Shown here: positions 23,221 to 46,207 of the stretch, piece by piece
Layout of the letters: each line of letters starts with the position of its first letter
Numbering within the stretch: position 1 is the stretch's first letter
NCBI GenBank assembly: GCA_016194975.1
Contig: JACQAM010000009.1
Span: 126,788-190,787, forward strand
Source: Bacteroidota bacterium
Lineage (GTDB): Bacteria > Bacteroidota > Bacteroidia > Palsa-965
Length of the DNA stretch: 64,000 nucleotides
Reading direction: 5' to 3'
Made by a program: the position numbers and the translations under genes
The notes under the pieces: generated by a model
Database searches by the model: none
Seen by the model: only the letters and a program-made list of their open reading frames with translations
Told to the model about the DNA's origin: nothing

Positions 23221-24126
23221 TCAGTAGGTGCCAAGCGCCTTGATGAGTCGCTGGATCTGTGAAGCCCACAATCGTTTGCCGGTTACAATATCATCTTCAC
23301 TATCGCCGAAATCAGTAACAACGAGAGAAACTTCACCGGTCATTTCATCCTGCGTCATGCTGAATTCGAAATAATATCCATCCGGTTTATCGAGCCAGCG
23401 TAAGCGCAGGTAGCTATCGATCTTTGCATTCACGATCGCGGCACTTTGCTTTGCACCATCCCAGTTGAATGTATAAATATCATTTTTCAGATCCACACCA
23501 TCGGCAAACCATTCGGCTAGTCCATTCGGCGTGGTCAGAAAATCATAGAGAAGAGAAACAGGTGTGCGGATGATATATTCGAGTGAATATTTCCCTTTCG
23601 GTTCCGGTTTTAATTTTTTCTGATCTTCCAGAGGCATATCGTGGATCACGTGATGTGTGATCACTTCAGTCTTCAGAACTCTTTTTTCTCCCGGTGCCAG
23701 TTTTCCTTTTTGTTTTTTCAGGTGAAAAGTTTTCGGAAGGCGAGGAAGTTTCATCAACTCCGGTGACAATACAACAGGTACTTTCACTTTCGATTTTGGT
23801 GCCGGTTTTTTCAGCGGTGTCGTGTTATGGGTAACAGGAGGAGTTGGAACTGCAGTTGCCGGTTTGATGATCGCTTTTGGTACAGGGGTTTCTTTTTGTT
23901 TCGGATTGATTTTTTTTGATTTGATCACAGCTTCGGATTTAATTTTCTTTTTCACAATGGCCACAGGTTTTTTAGTCGCGGCTTTCACTTTCTTTGATTT
24001 GGGCAATGGTTTTTTTACAGCGGGTTTCGCTTTCGGTTTAGCAACTTTTGTTTTGCTCTTCACCTTTGCTTTCGCCTTTTTTTTCGGCGTCTGCTTCTTC
24101 GGTTTTTTCGCTGCTTTCTTTGTCAT
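23221..24126 (-). CDS. START-like domain protein with long Lys/Pro-rich N-terminal tail
   Basis: This 301-residue protein has two parts. Residues 177-301 are the compact Bacteroidota START-like (SRPBCC/AHSA1-type) domain: KYSLEYIIRTPVSLLYDFL, TPNGLAEWFADGVDLKND, YTFNWDGAKQSA, RLRWLD and the C-terminal helix. Residues 1-176 are low-complexity and rich in Lys, Ala and Pro (KKPKKQTPKKKAKAK, VAKPKAKPAVKKP), like histone H1 or bacterial Hc1 tails. Family members I know are only about 125 residues long, so the tail is an addition. A nucleic-acid-binding role for the tail is an inference. No frameshift is needed and the start at 24126 is unambiguous. Confidence 0.82.
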   Translation of the reverse strand: MTKKAAKKPKKQTPKKKAKAKVKSKTKVAKPKAKPAVKKPLPKSKKVKAATKKPVAIVKKKIKSEAVIKSKKINPKQKETPVPKAIIKPATAVPTPPVTHNTTPLKKPAPKSKVKVPVVLSPELMKLPRLPKTFHLKKQKGKLAPGEKRVLKTEVITHHVIHDMPLEDQKKLKPEPKGKYSLEYIIRTPVSLLYDFLTTPNGLAEWFADGVDLKNDIYTFNWDGAKQSAAIVNAKIDSYLRLRWLDKPDGYYFEFSMTQDEMTGEVSLVVTDFGDSEDDIVTGKRLWASQIQRLIKALGTY

Positions 24127-24344: not shown

Positions 24345-24418
24345 GGCGAGGTAGCTCAGCTGGCTAGAGCGCAGCACTCATAATGCTGAGGTCGAGAGTT
24401 CGAGTCTCTCTCTCGCTA
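24345..24418 (+). tRNA. tRNA-Met (CAT anticodon)
   Basis: The 74-nt cloverleaf has acceptor GGCGAGG / TCTCGCT (G-U at both ends), D-stem GCTC/GAGC, anticodon stem CAGCA/TGCTG with loop CTCATAA, and T-stem GAGAG/CTCTC with loop TTCGAGT. The discriminator is A and CCA is not encoded. The body matches elongator tRNA-Met; a lysidine-modified tRNA-Ile(CAT) cannot be excluded by eye. Nucleotides 45-74 of this tRNA are repeated at 24692-24763. Confidence 0.93.
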
Positions 24419-24492
24419 CTTAATGTAAGGCATCTTCGATTGGAGATGCCTTTTTACTTTTGATTATGGTAACGATTTACGTCATCAGCTGT
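24389..24492 (+). repeat. direct repeat, copy 1 (tRNA 3' part, terminator, GIY-YIG start)
   Basis: These 104 bases hold tRNA nucleotides 45-74, the terminator hairpin and the nuclease start through codon 9. Compared with copy 2 (24692-24825) there is one substitution (CTTAATG against CTTTATG), one 1-base gap and one 29-base insertion in copy 2. Confidence 0.9.
24427..24455 (+). terminator. Rho-independent terminator after tRNA-Met
   Basis: AAGGCATCT / AGATGCCTT stem followed by five T. It lies between the tRNA and the GIY-YIG gene, and is duplicated intact after that gene (24769-24787). Confidence 0.8.
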
Positions 24493-24717
24493 CTTGCTGC
24501 GAAAAAGAAATATGTTGGCATGACAGAAAATATTGATCAGCGATTGAAAGATCATAATTCGGGAGCATCAAAATTCACATCTGGATACGGTCCATGGGTT
24601 TTAATTTATTCAGAAACAGCAGAAGATTTTGCAAGAGCGCGCGTAAGGGAAAAATATTTGAAGTCAGCAGCGGGAAGAAGATTTATAAAAAAGGTCGAGA
24701 GTTCCCCGCCCGCCTGA
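24466..24717 (+). CDS. GIY-YIG nuclease family protein
   Basis: This single-domain endonuclease-like protein of 83 residues (ATG 24466; a TTG at 24460 is in frame) matches the UPF0213/YhbQ-like class. The GIY-YIG core is intact: TIYVIS, KKKYVGMTENIDQRLKDHNSG with the catalytic Arg, FTSGYGPWVLIYSE, and ARVREKYLKSAAGRRF with the catalytic Glu. The last residues after RRFIKK (VESSPPA) are encoded by the duplicated tRNA fragment and an inserted GC-rich palindrome that supplies the stop. The gene begins 48 bases after the tRNA with the tRNA terminator between them. Confidence 0.85.
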   Translation: MVTIYVISCLAAKKKYVGMTENIDQRLKDHNSGASKFTSGYGPWVLIYSETAEDFARARVREKYLKSAAGRRFIKKVESSPPA

Positions 24718-24734
24718 CCGGCGGTCGGGCGGGG
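24704..24734. repeat. GC-rich palindrome inside the duplicated tRNA fragment
   Basis: Perfect 9-bp arms CCCCGCCCG (24704-24712) and CGGGCGGGG (24726-24734) flank a 13-base loop. Copy 1 shows the uninterrupted target, so the insertion boundaries (24705-24733, 29 bases) are exact. Confidence 0.85.
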
Positions 24735-24798
24735 AGTCTCTCTCTCGCTACTTTATGTAAGGCATCTTCGATTGGAGATGCCTTTTTACTTTTCGATT

Positions 24799-24825
24799 AT
24801 GGTAACGATTTACGTCATCAGCTGT
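24799..24825 (+). pseudogene. remnant of a second GIY-YIG gene start
   Basis: ATG 24799 begins MVTIYVISC, identical in DNA and protein to the intact nuclease start. After codon 9 the frame reads EKKMFCVFAIF and homology is lost, except perhaps the KK-aromatic pattern. It runs into the end of the opposite-strand hydrolase gene. Confidence 0.75.
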
Positions 24826-24870
24826 GAGAAGAAAATGTTCTGCGTCTTCGCAATATTTGAAAATAATTTT

Positions 24871-33545: not shown

Positions 33546-36500
33546 ACCATTGTACTTATTTTTTTATTCAGTTCAACTATTACTCCATTACAAACCGTTG
33601 TAACTTTTTTTACCATGTCTGGAAATTCTTCCGTGGTTTCTCCCAGCCCGGCTTTTTTTTCAAGGTCGGCCACCGTGGTTTTCAGTGAATGTATCCCAAT
33701 GAAGTCGAGCGACGGTTTCATTTTATGAGCCACACCCGACAACTCTTTCCATTTTTTTTCATTCACATATTTCCACATATCTTCCAGCATGACCGGCGTT
33801 TGTTTGAGAAATGTTTCGAGCATTTTTTTTACGAATTCATGATTTCCTTCGGCGATCTGTTCGAGGTAGGTGAGATCAATATTCGTTTCTGATGTGGACA
33901 ACGGATTTTCTATGTTCGGTTTTTCAGGTTCACAATGGCAATTCGCTTTTTTCTTCCGGAGCAATGCACTTATTTTTTCGTGCAATGTTTTCCTGCTGAA
34001 TGGTTTTGAAATGTAGTCGTCCATTCCAAGTGCAAGACATTTTTCGGCTTCTCCCACCAGCGCGTGTGCGGTCATGGCGATAATAGGAACTTCACTTTTC
34101 GGCAGCGGCATTTTTCCGCGGATGAATTGCGTGGCTTCATAGCCATCCATTTCCGGCATCTGGATATCCATGAGAACAATATCATAGTCCTTTGCATTCA
34201 TTTTTTCTATTACCTCTTTTCCGTTGCACGCAATATCAAGATGCAATCCCCATTGTTCAAAAACTTTTGAAGCGAGCATCTGGTTCATCTCGTTGTCTTC
34301 GGCAAGGATCACATTGAGATTTTCGAATTTTTCCTTAACGCCTGAATGAGTTTCAATCTGAGCCGGGACAAGATCAGACTCACATTTCCTGAATGGAAGT
34401 GTTATCCGGAATGTAGAACCATAACCGATCCTGCTTTCCACTTCGATGGTGCCATCAAGAAGTTCGGTGAGTTGTTTTACGATCGTGAGGCCGAGCCCGG
34501 TGCCTCCGTATTTTCTTGAAGTTTCATTGCTCGCCTGTGTGAAACTTTCAAAAATGGTTGCGAGCCGGTCCTGCGGTATGCCGATGCCCGTGTCTTTTAC
34601 AATGAATGTGAGTTTATAGTTTTCTGCATCTTCAGCAGTAATACCAATGCTGATGTCCACCCTGCCACTCTCCGTAAATTTTACCGAATTGCTTACGAGA
34701 TTTAAAAGGATCTGTCGCAGCCGCAACGGATCTCCTTTTACAAATTCCGGGATGCGGTCTTTCCCTGGCGAATAAGAAAGTGCAATTCCTTTGCGCGAAG
34801 CAGAAATGCGAAGTGTAAGCAAAACTCCATCTATCACTTCCTGCATTTTGAACGGAATCAATTCAACAGAAACTGTTCCTGATTTCAGTTTTGAAAAATC
34901 AAGAATATCATTGATGATCGACAAAAGGTTGTCGGACGAAAGCTGTATCGCTTCGAGACATTCTTTCTGATCTTCCGAAACATTTCCATCGAGCAGGATA
35001 TCCGTTAGCCCGACAATCGCATTCATCGGCGTTCGTATTTCGTGGCTCATTTTTGCAAGAAACTGTTCTTTCACCTGCATGGATTCTTCAAGATCTTTTT
35101 TTGCTTTGATGAGTTCGTTCAGCGCCTTGTTTCCTTTTTTCAACGAATGTTCAGCGATCCTGTTGGCGAGAATGAGATCTTCTTCAATGCGTTTTCTTTC
35201 TGTAATATCGGAATCGATGGCAATAATTCTTTCCAATTTTCCGTCCTTGCCTATTACAGGTGTAAGCGTAGTGATGACCCAATATTCATTTCCGGTTTTT
35301 GTATAATTCTTGCTTTCATACACCACCGGTTTTTTATTCGTGATGAGATTTTCAAAGAATTCCGAATTACCGGTGAGGCCGGTGTCACTTCCTTTCCTCA
35401 AAAGTTCACCGTGCGTATTCCGGATTTCTTCGAGTGTGTAACCGGTAAGTTTTGTGAATCCTTCATTCACCCATTCAATATTTCCATTGCTGTCGGTAAT
35501 GAGAACGGAGTTGTTCGATTTGGTTGCGGCCATTACTAATTTTTCCATTTCTTCTTCCTGGAATCTTTCCGTGATGTCCTGGTCGGTTCCAACTACTTTG
35601 ATCGCCTCTCCCGATTCATTCACTATTACTTCTCCTTTCGCACTCAATGTCCTCAATGAATTATCGGGACGGATAATGCGATGCTGAAAAGAAAATGGTT
35701 TATGATTTTTTCTCGCTTCAACAATTATCCGGCTTATGCGTTGTTTGTCTTCCGGGTGCATCATGGAAAAAATTTTCTCATAGGAGATTTCGCCGTTTTT
35801 TTGTTCGAGGCCGTAAATGCGGTACATCTCTTCAGACCAATCGATCGCGTTGTCGGCGAAAGTCCATTCCCAACTCCCGATGTGCGCGAGTTGCTGCGCG
35901 CTCGCGAGTTGTGCCATGCTCTGGACTAATTTATTTTCCGTTATTTTCCGGTTGGTATTGTCGCGGACAATCTTCGCGTATCCTTTCAGATTTCCGTTAT
36001 CGTCAAACAGTGATGTATAAATGATATCGGCCCAGAATAAAGAACCATCTTTTCTCAATCGCCATCCTTCACAGGTAAAATTTCCGTTTTCATAAGCGCT
36101 GTCGAGATTTTTTTTCGGTTCACCTGCCGCTACCATTTCCGGTGTGTAGAAAACCGAAATGTGTTTTCCTACAATCTCTTCTTCGGTGTAACCGCATATT
36201 CTTTTCGTTCCTTCATTCCAGCTTTTCACATAACCCGAGTGATCGATCATGAAGATCGCGTAGTCGCTGATGCTCCCGGAAAACAGCCGGAATATTTCTT
36301 CGCTTTCTTTCAGCAATGTTTTCGATCGTTTTTTTTCAACCGTGGTATAATTCAGTTCTTCTGTCATCCGGTTGAATGAATCGGCAAGCACGCCGATTTC
36401 ATCGCGCGAATATTTTTTTGCGCGTGCACTAAAATCACCCTTTGCAATTTTTTCAGATGCGTTCAGAATTTCTTTCAATCCTTTTTGAATTCCCTTGCTT

Positions 36501-44117: not shown

Positions 44118-46207
44118 GTTTCACTCATTACGGAACGTATTTTTTCGAAGAGCGCTTTTTTTGAGAATGGTTTTGTGATGTATCCGTTCATTCCCGCTTC
44201 GAAACATTTTTCTTCTTCGCCATGCATGGCATGCGCGGTCACTGCAATGATCGGAACTGCGTTTCCGGTTGCGGTTAATTCACGCCTGATATAACGGGCA
44301 ACTTCATACCCGTCTTTTTCCGGGAGTTGTATATCGAGCAGAACAAGATCATATTTATTCGCTGTTGTTTTTTCGATGGCGATTTTTCCGTTCCATGCAA
44401 GATCTGTTTTACTTTTCAATCCTTCCAGCATTTTCATGATCAGCATCTGGTTCATCTCGTTGTCTTCTGCAACAAGTATGTTCAATCCTTCGATGGCAGA
44501 AAAATTTTCATTCGCATGACCAGTAGTTTTATTTTTCGGAAACGGAATATTTTTGCCGAACGGAAGATTGAAAGTGAATACGGATCCTTTCATCAACCGG
44601 CTTTCGAGATGAATGGAACCGTTCTGCATTTCCACCAATTGTTTTACAATGGCGAGTCCCAATCCTGTGCCTCCGTATTTTCTTGTCGTTTCATTGCTGG
44701 CCTGTGTGAAACCTTCGAACACCGACGAAATTTTATTTTGCGGAATACCGATCCCTGTGTCACTTACTTCAAACCTGAGCATCACACTGTCGTCATTTTC
44801 GGAAAGGAGACGAACACTTATTTTCACTTCTCCTTTTTCTGTGAACTTGATGGCGTTGTCAGCAAGATTGATCAGGATCTGGCTCATACGTGTGGGATCG
44901 CCGGTAAGAGCATCGGGAATTTTATCATCGCAGTGAACGGAGAGCGATATTTTTTTTTCATTGGCTTTCGGCAGCATAAGCATCATCATCGAATCGAGCA
45001 GTGAGGAAAGTTTAAGTTCTGTTTTTTCAAAAATAATTTTACCCGAACGGATCTTGGAGAAATCCAGGATATCATTGATGATGACAAGAAGATTCTGTCC
45101 CGATTTTTTTACCGCGTCTACGTACTGTTCCTGTTCGCTGTCCAGTTTTGTTTTTTCCATAAGTTCTGTAAATCCCACGATCGCATTCATCGGCGTACGT
45201 ATCTCGTGGCTCATATTCGCAAGGAAAGTATCCTTCACCTTCACCGACTCTTCCAGTTCCTTCTGCGCTTTTTCAAGATTGCTGTTTAATTTTTCAAGTT
45301 TCTGTTCTGATTCGCGCCGCTCATTGAGCGTAGTGCTCAAAAACATCATGATGATCGAGCTCACGCAAATAAAGATCTGCAGCGATAACAAAGAATTATT
45401 CTGCGTGTCGGAGATGAATGGCCCTTTCCCGCCCAGTGTATTCCAGATGGCCAGTCCAGATACCAGAAGTACAATGAGCGACGACTGCCATTGCTCGATC
45501 GCAAAAACACAACCGGTAAGAATGATCAGCAAAAGATAGATGGAAGAATTAAGCGGGAAGAAAGAAAGCCGGCCGTTGAATTCTGCTTCCATGTAAATGA
45601 TGAGGAGGATAAAGATCACGGAGAATTTCCAGAAATTTTTAAACTGAATTTTTTCCCGGAACGAATTCCAGCAACTGAGTAAGACCGGAGTGAGTACAAT
45701 AATTCCGGCTACATCTCCCATCCACCACGTGAACCACACCGTCTTGTACGCGCTCGCCTGGATCACTCCTCCTTCCAATAAACTGGTTGCGCCGAATGTG
45801 CAACTGACCATGCACATGAGCAAAGCAGCAAAAATAAAAAGAGAAAAATCTTTTGTTAAGCTGAGTATCTGCTTCGAACGAAAAAGATTGAGCAGATAAT
45901 TTCCGGTAAGCGCTTCGAGCGTATTTCCGGCCGCAATAATTCCCGACATAAAAAGAATGGTATTCAGGCCGGCGGCTTTGTTCGATAAAAAAACAACGAC
46001 GTTCGCAGCAAAAGCGCCGATAAATATTCCCGGCCACGAGCGGGAACCAAGAATAAGTATTGCAGCAAATGCAAAACCGGAAGGAGGCCACACCGGGGAA
46101 GCATTCGTATTTCCGAGCGCAAGCAAAAGTCCCGCTCTTGCAGAAAAATAATAAATGACAGCAACAGCTATAATCCTCGGAATCGATTTCAGGGAAACTT
46201 TATTCAT
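44096..46207 (-). CDS. MASE1 hybrid sensor histidine kinase
   Basis: This 703-residue kinase begins with a MASE1 membrane sensor of about eight TM helices (residues 10-295; NTNASPVWPPSGFAFAAILILGSRSWPGIFIGAF is diagnostic). A coiled-coil linker follows, then HisKA (FLANMSHEIRTPMNAIVGF) and HATPase boxes (NLADNAIKF, DTGIGIP, GTGLGL). A C-terminal REC has LVAEDNEMNQ, DLVLLDIQLPEKDGYE and YITKPFS. It has no HPt, so phosphate must pass to a separate HPt protein such as the one at 48531. It is monocistronic, and its stop lies in the convergent terminator loop. Confidence 0.95.
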   Translation of the reverse strand: MNKVSLKSIPRIIAVAVIYYFSARAGLLLALGNTNASPVWPPSGFAFAAILILGSRSWPGIFIGAFAANVVVFLSNKAAGLNTILFMSGIIAAGNTLEALTGNYLLNLFRSKQILSLTKDFSLFIFAALLMCMVSCTFGATSLLEGGVIQASAYKTVWFTWWMGDVAGIIVLTPVLLSCWNSFREKIQFKNFWKFSVIFILLIIYMEAEFNGRLSFFPLNSSIYLLLIILTGCVFAIEQWQSSLIVLLVSGLAIWNTLGGKGPFISDTQNNSLLSLQIFICVSSIIMMFLSTTLNERRESEQKLEKLNSNLEKAQKELEESVKVKDTFLANMSHEIRTPMNAIVGFTELMEKTKLDSEQEQYVDAVKKSGQNLLVIINDILDFSKIRSGKIIFEKTELKLSSLLDSMMMLMLPKANEKKISLSVHCDDKIPDALTGDPTRMSQILINLADNAIKFTEKGEVKISVRLLSENDDSVMLRFEVSDTGIGIPQNKISSVFEGFTQASNETTRKYGGTGLGLAIVKQLVEMQNGSIHLESRLMKGSVFTFNLPFGKNIPFPKNKTTGHANENFSAIEGLNILVAEDNEMNQMLIMKMLEGLKSKTDLAWNGKIAIEKTTANKYDLVLLDIQLPEKDGYEVARYIRRELTATGNAVPIIAVTAHAMHGEEEKCFEAGMNGYITKPFSKKALFEKIRSVMSETKKGLSF

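Follow-up and report, generated by a model that had tools for sequence, protein, structure and literature searches.

The nearest known system to the locus described here is SegB, a free-standing GIY-YIG homing endonuclease of T4-like phages that is encoded in a tRNA gene region (PMC2988022; PMC13096335). The likeness lies in a lone GIY-YIG gene that adjoins tRNA genes without an integrase or an intron, and in a spread that is thought to use the repair of breaks. Elements with a tyrosine integrase at tRNA 3′ ends resemble our locus in retaining an intact tRNA gene and in having a partial copy at the opposite boundary, and REP/RAYT systems resemble it in that a small nuclease gene occurs together with short palindromes rich in GC. 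Here we compare with these systems a tRNA-Met locus of the window (the whole stretch of 64,000 nucleotides from a Bacteroidota bacterium that was analysed) and its homologues in other genomes.

A tRNA-Met gene partly copied across a nuclease gene

An initial annotation of the window had proposed that an intact tRNA-Met gene, its terminator, an 83-residue GIY-YIG gene, a partial tRNA, the terminator again and nine codons of the nuclease gene follow one another. We could confirm this order to the base, and the coordinates agree with the lengths of 104 and 134 nt that had been given for the two copies:

24345-24419, + strand: intact tRNA-Met(CAT), the invaded gene (ARAGORN)
24427-24452, + strand: terminator-like hairpin followed by a T-run (to 24455), 3′ of the intact tRNA-Met (sequence)
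24466-24717, + strand: GIY-YIG nuclease ORF of 83 aa, from ATG at 24466 to a TGA ending at 24717 (Pfam PF01541, E 2e-15)
24692-24704, + strand: partial copy of tRNA-Met, piece 1 (tRNA nt 45-57; repeat spacing of 303 and split alignment, locus L209)
24705-24733, + strand: 29-nt palindrome CCCGCCCGCCTGACCGGCGGTCGGGCGGG within the T-loop of the second tRNA-Met copy, at GTTC^GAG (sequence, split alignment and folding)
24734-24751, + strand: partial copy of tRNA-Met, piece 2 (tRNA nt 58-75; repeat spacing of 332)
24759-24788, + strand: second copy of the terminator (repeat comparison)
24799-24825, + strand: truncated second copy of the nuclease gene, from an older unit, first nine codons (sequence and repeat comparison)

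The two copies had been said to differ by one insertion. Such an insertion is present but is not stray sequence; it is the 29-nt palindrome in the T-loop, an essential extra component, which is GC-rich and, when folded, prolongs the T-stem (z -3.5), and whose core has no other exact copy within the window's genome. The tRNA-Met gene exists in only one full-length copy genome-wide. As had also been proposed, the C-terminus of the nuclease is partly encoded by tRNA sequence: the codons for VESS are read through the tRNA copy, and those for PPA and the stop are read through the palindrome. The absence of an integrase was likewise borne out, in that the GIY-YIG ORF is the sole gene between the tRNA copies and no integrase or recombinase gene is found there. 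A two-copy repeat of such length, in an architecture directly observed at more than 100 loci, is not due to chance. (Note that the gene at 23221-24126 on the - strand encodes a protein with a START-like domain and a long N-terminal tail that is rich in lysine and alanine and resembles histone H1, and that this START-domain gene adjoins the tRNA-Met gene conservedly across the window's family. Elsewhere in the window, at 34275-35107 and 44442-45271, there are two pairs of similar segments, both spaced ~10.2 kb apart, which suggests paralogous genes or a duplicated block.)

The window protein scores 57.3 bits against PF01541 (cut-off 22.6), and the catalytic residues Y5, Y16, G18, R26 and E62 are invariant. 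The nearest solved structures by profile are those of UPF0213 (1zg2 and 1ywl) and SLX1. These nearest relatives include structure-specific endonucleases, an activity that would suit the recognition of DNA hairpins. The protein matches intron endonucleases only weakly, below the cut-off. A group I intron with a GIY-YIG ORF was rejected as an explanation because the tRNA has an intact copy and the unit is too small; moreover, no Rfam intron match was found in the 17 loci scanned, among which the window was not included. No relatives of the window protein were found in the viral contigs searched, and no vector for the element emerged from plasmid and phage records, which gave only distant GIY-YIG relatives of less than 60% identity. 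In annotated records the relatives are named merely "GIY-YIG nuclease family protein".

Recurrence at structured-RNA genes

A search with PF01541 of the 12 available genomes of the window's family returned ~40 small GIY-YIG genes, many of which lie directly 3′ of, and on the same strand as, a gene for tRNA-Met, Ser, Asn, Ala, Val, Leu or Asp or for tmRNA. At several of these family loci the anatomy of the window's tRNA-Met locus is repeated, with an intact tRNA followed by a terminator, the nuclease gene and a palindrome-interrupted 3′ part of the tRNA. At locus L038 the order is reversed, so that a palindrome-interrupted 5′ part comes before the nuclease gene and an intact tRNA-Ser after it. 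We also used an artificial consensus protein to scan 84,980 genomes, irrespective of gene context, and obtained 80 loci, many of them from metagenome-assembled genomes, that span Bacteroidota, Ignavibacteria/Chlorobiota, Patescibacteria, Omnitrophota, Planctomycetota and others. A same-strand tRNA gene lies within 400 nt in 72 of the 80 loci and an opposite-strand one in none; the tRNA is downstream in 59 and upstream in 15, some loci having both, and an upstream partial copy of the same tRNA accompanies 57 of the 59 downstream ones. With ~45 tRNA genes per 4 Mb, a same-strand tRNA gene would by our estimate fall within 400 nt by chance roughly 1% of the time.

We refer to the small GIY-YIG subfamily as class A and took ordinary UPF0213-like genes as a comparison set. 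A same-strand tRNA or tmRNA gene lies within 400 nt of 175 of 225 class A genes, in contrast to the ordinary UPF0213-type genes of the same genomes, which never adjoin one (0/45). Note that the examples from which class A was originally defined were tRNA-adjacent, so that this contrast is inflated; the figure of 72 in 80 is less affected, although the consensus was modelled on those same examples. Of the other 50 class A genes, most either belong to tandem arrays as additional units or are located close to a contig end, two adjoin an RNase P RNA gene and one a tmRNA gene overlooked by ARAGORN; class A genes with no RNA gene in reach also exist (for example at L043, L166 and L183). The initial annotation had suggested that such genes recur beside tRNA genes, as indeed they do, and a distribution of homologues independent of RNA genes, which would have refuted its reading, is contradicted by the same-strand clustering. 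Its further proposal of an element at the tRNA 3′ end needs to be amended: the elements are tRNA-associated and mobile, but the nuclease gene lies 5′ of the intact tRNA about as often as 3′ of it, and the targets extend beyond tRNA 3′ ends to tmRNA and RNase P RNA. (Separately, some GIY-YIG genes that we placed in class B lie near dispersed repeats, and the GIY-YIG genes of L008, L020 and L037 lie between long direct copies of dispersed palindromic repeats, such as ATTGCGAGGAACGAAGCAATC, rather than between tRNAs.)

The RNase P RNA case comprises three of eight genomes of one genus, in which the nuclease ORF lies within the P3 loop of the sole detected gene:

L322:1278-1475, L323:1278-1475 and L324:1278-1475, strand-oriented: GIY-YIG ORF within the rnpB P3 loop

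In all three the P3 stem is extended by an inverted repeat of 19-24 bp that borders the ORF, and in the remaining five genomes of the genus the P3 loop is short, as is normal, and the site is empty. The rnpB element needs no duplication, presumably because P3 tolerates an insert, and its position ties the element to the hairpin loops of structured-RNA genes generally.

A partial copy of the same tRNA or tmRNA lies across the nuclease gene at 145 of the 175 class A loci that adjoin an RNA gene, and none was detected at the threshold used in the other 30; the ends of the nuclease genes are often tRNA-derived, as at the window. An insert, in most cases palindromic, occupies a fixed loop position in 122 of the 145 partial copies. 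At least half of the bases are paired in 94 of 110 inserts (those of at least 12 nt), compared to 20% of random control segments. Inserts at ATA^GA in the D-loop number 35, nearly all of them in tRNA-Arg, those of the window type at TTC^GA in the T-loop number 15, and others lie in the anticodon loop at TTG^AA or TTG^CT. The median relative position of the insert is 0.29 in 5′ partial copies versus 0.65 in 3′ partial copies: 5′ copies usually carry inserts of the 5′ half and 3′ copies inserts of the 3′ half, as has to be the case if a copy must include the insertion site.

The palindrome of the tRNA-Arg elements, which reads CCTGCCTGCCGGCAGGCAGG in 15 of 34 loci, is 90% identical between loci, compared to 63% for the nuclease gene. 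Exact copies of it number only one to three in each of six genomes and lie mostly inside elements, whereas in a seventh genome (G018) the 20-mer palindrome occurs 12 times, in some cases at a distance from tRNAs. The low copy number and the location mostly within elements argue that the palindrome belongs mostly to the element, and the idea that it is a common genomic repeat was mostly rejected on the low counts of exact copies in the six genomes and in that of the window. (At L133:2368-2470 the tRNA-Arg element palindrome has grown into a long run of CCTG repeats.)

Mobility, target preference and mechanism

The mobility of the element is well supported. The orthologous tRNA-Met site beside the START-domain gene, examined across the window's genus and family, is occupied in the window and empty in L052, L055 and L056, and in L053 and L057 palindrome-interrupted 3′ copies of tRNA-Met lie 3′ of the tRNA-Met gene without a nuclease gene; the latter copies are scars or non-autonomous units. 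In Flavobacterium, 29 of 30 orthologous tRNA-Arg(TCG) loci have a single intact tRNA and the element is present only in the query genome. Close relatives thus do have a single intact tRNA at the orthologous site, which contradicts the alternative of an ancient fixed duplication without empty sites. Within a locus, the interrupted 5′ copy and the intact tRNA are 99.3% identical, compared to 81% between such a copy and the same tRNA elsewhere (42 loci), which argues that the duplication is local and either recent or kept uniform by gene conversion. The proposal that the element rebuilds the tRNA is consequently only partly upheld: an intact tRNA is kept, but the restored half is a local duplication. 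That this half was imported as cargo was rejected because the remnants resemble the tRNA of their own genome much more closely than those of other loci, and pairing in the acceptor stem gave no evidence of chimeric tRNAs. The moving part is the nuclease gene together with the palindrome.

Tandem arrays are directly visible. The longest unit series, at L091:1860-4960, consists of eight head-to-tail units of ~364 nt, each with a 3′ part of tRNA-fMet that carries one or two palindromes, a terminator and the nuclease gene; the first tRNA copy lacks its 5′ half, and each unit has one ORF and no intron, intein or integrase (unit size ~300-400 nt). Arrays of two or three units are found at other loci. 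Such arrays fit repeated insertion at a site that remains intact.

Target preference is apparent when tRNA isotype and arm are mapped onto a tree of 190 class A nucleases (77 columns, with many forks unresolved). Isotype changes 53 times, compared to a mean of 93 and a minimum of 85 after shuffling, and the insert-bearing arm changes 29 times, compared to a mean of 38 in shuffles within isotypes, none of 500 of which reached 29. On these alignments, nuclease phylogeny predicts the tRNA and the arm affected; that related nucleases mark the same tRNA and loop is what recognition or cutting at that loop by the nuclease would predict. At nuclease-first tRNA-Arg loci, the Bacteroidota-type promoter motif TAnnTTTG lies 5′ of the interrupted copy in 24 of 45 cases, compared to 4 of 45 for the intact copy, from which we infer that the intact tRNA at nuclease-first loci is probably made from the nuclease transcript.

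We think it probable, though far from settled, that these are minimal homing-type mobile elements made up of an SLX1/UPF0213-like GIY-YIG gene and a short palindrome, cutting by the nuclease being an inference. According to this model, the nuclease of each subfamily would recognise a particular structured-RNA gene and break the DNA at a set loop, namely the D-, anticodon or T-loop of a tRNA or the P3 loop of RNase P RNA, and recombination repair would then install the nuclease gene and leave the palindrome in that copy of the site which had been broken. In a loop that tolerates an insert, such as P3, the gene would simply occupy the loop. In an intolerant tRNA loop, the survivors would be those cells that had repaired the break by way of a local duplication, leaving the nuclease gene between an intact RNA gene and a palindrome-interrupted partial copy; insertion would be survivable because one intact RNA gene remains. 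Repeat strikes on the intact site would yield tandem arrays with the newest unit beside the RNA gene. Cleavage at the position of the palindrome, spread driven by repair and any part of the palindrome in protecting the copy or marking the join are all inferred; the palindrome may serve as protection, as a joining end or as a recognition hairpin, none of which has been shown. The main difficulty for homing is that the intact tRNA retains the presumed target, and no limit on self-cleavage is seen in the data. In addition, for a site-specific homing enzyme, an 80-aa GIY-YIG protein that lacks a DNA-binding domain would be unusually small, and because the duplication arose locally, classical copying of donor flanks cannot explain the whole structure.

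The same observations can be read in other ways. Were the palindrome the true mobile unit, as in REP sequences, and the GIY-YIG protein its mobiliser akin to RAYT/TnpA-REP, with tRNA arms targeted as hairpins, one would understand why palindromes enter loop positions and lengthen the tRNA stem, why an inverted repeat borders the nuclease gene in rnpB and why G018 has copies away from tRNAs; we nevertheless regard this as unlikely, given the one to three exact copies in the six other genomes, mostly inside elements, and the lack of a second exact copy of the window palindrome core. Slightly more doubtful in our view is a cleave-and-rescue or addiction system, in which the nuclease harms an essential tRNA, or the gene that encodes it, while the intact copy next to it serves as the rescue and makes the element hard to lose. 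Against such a system, no recoding is visible in the intact copy where the target is supposed to lie, and the duplicated half is of local origin and was not imported. In its favour, the tRNA is single-copy, every element combines a nuclease with an intact copy of one essential RNA gene and, in the gene-then-tRNA form, the native promoter lies 5′ of the interrupted copy, so that loss of the element would threaten expression of the tRNA.

That a resident nuclease gene was merely caught up in ordinary local tandem duplication, with palindromes arising by chance and no mobility, appears very improbable. The truncated second units and the arrays do resemble tandem duplication, but this account is already contradicted by the empty orthologous sites and by the recurrence of the arrangement, and it would have to accommodate the many different tRNAs struck within one family, insertion points that are fixed across phyla and an arm specificity that tracks nuclease phylogeny. 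Beyond the homing-type model that we favour, we put forward tentatively, as a possibility somewhat less likely than not, that the elements form an unrecognised class, consisting of a catalytic-domain-only GIY-YIG protein and a palindrome, that in Bacteroidota, Chlorobi/Ignavibacteria, Patescibacteria, Omnitrophota and others is specialised for the loops of structured-RNA genes that are essential, recognises DNA hairpin structure rather than a long sequence and duplicates the essential gene locally as its own rescue, one lineage residing inside the sole RNase P RNA gene.

Relation to known systems

At ~300-400 nt, the elements are among the smallest autonomous-looking mobile elements known to us. 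They invade genes that cannot be broken and appear to solve this problem by keeping an intact copy, which makes them a natural and testable model for how an element can attack an essential gene yet preserve it. Because each nuclease clade tends toward one tRNA and loop, they also offer a ready set for studying how an 80-residue nuclease finds its site. The elements are a possible route of origin for tRNA gene fragments, tandem tRNA-nuclease arrays and interrupted RNase P RNA; tRNA fragments beside nuclease genes are easily mistaken for annotation noise. We did not find a description of such elements in the open literature, preprints and most subscription papers lying outside our search.

Unlike tyrosine-integrase elements, those described here have no integrase, have 5′ copies as commonly as 3′ copies, carry a palindrome that interrupts the copy and also target tmRNA and RNase P RNA. 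They differ from REP/RAYT systems in that no HUH transposase is present in the element; the palindrome, mostly associated with RNA genes, had few exact copies in most of the genomes counted but 12 in one. With each of these two kinds of system the elements share single features but lack a defining one. The criteria of a lone gene and of presence or absence at the site, which characterise free-standing homing endonuclease elements, are met here. SegB-type enzymes, however, have separate DNA-binding regions, are associated with phage co-infections and have cut sites hundreds of bases from the gene, whereas the present elements reside in bacterial chromosomes, encode a catalytic domain only, place a palindrome in a fixed loop of an RNA gene and leave that RNA gene duplicated and partly restored. 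The elements may thus be a variant of the homing-endonuclease kind that has not been described before, or possibly a separate class.
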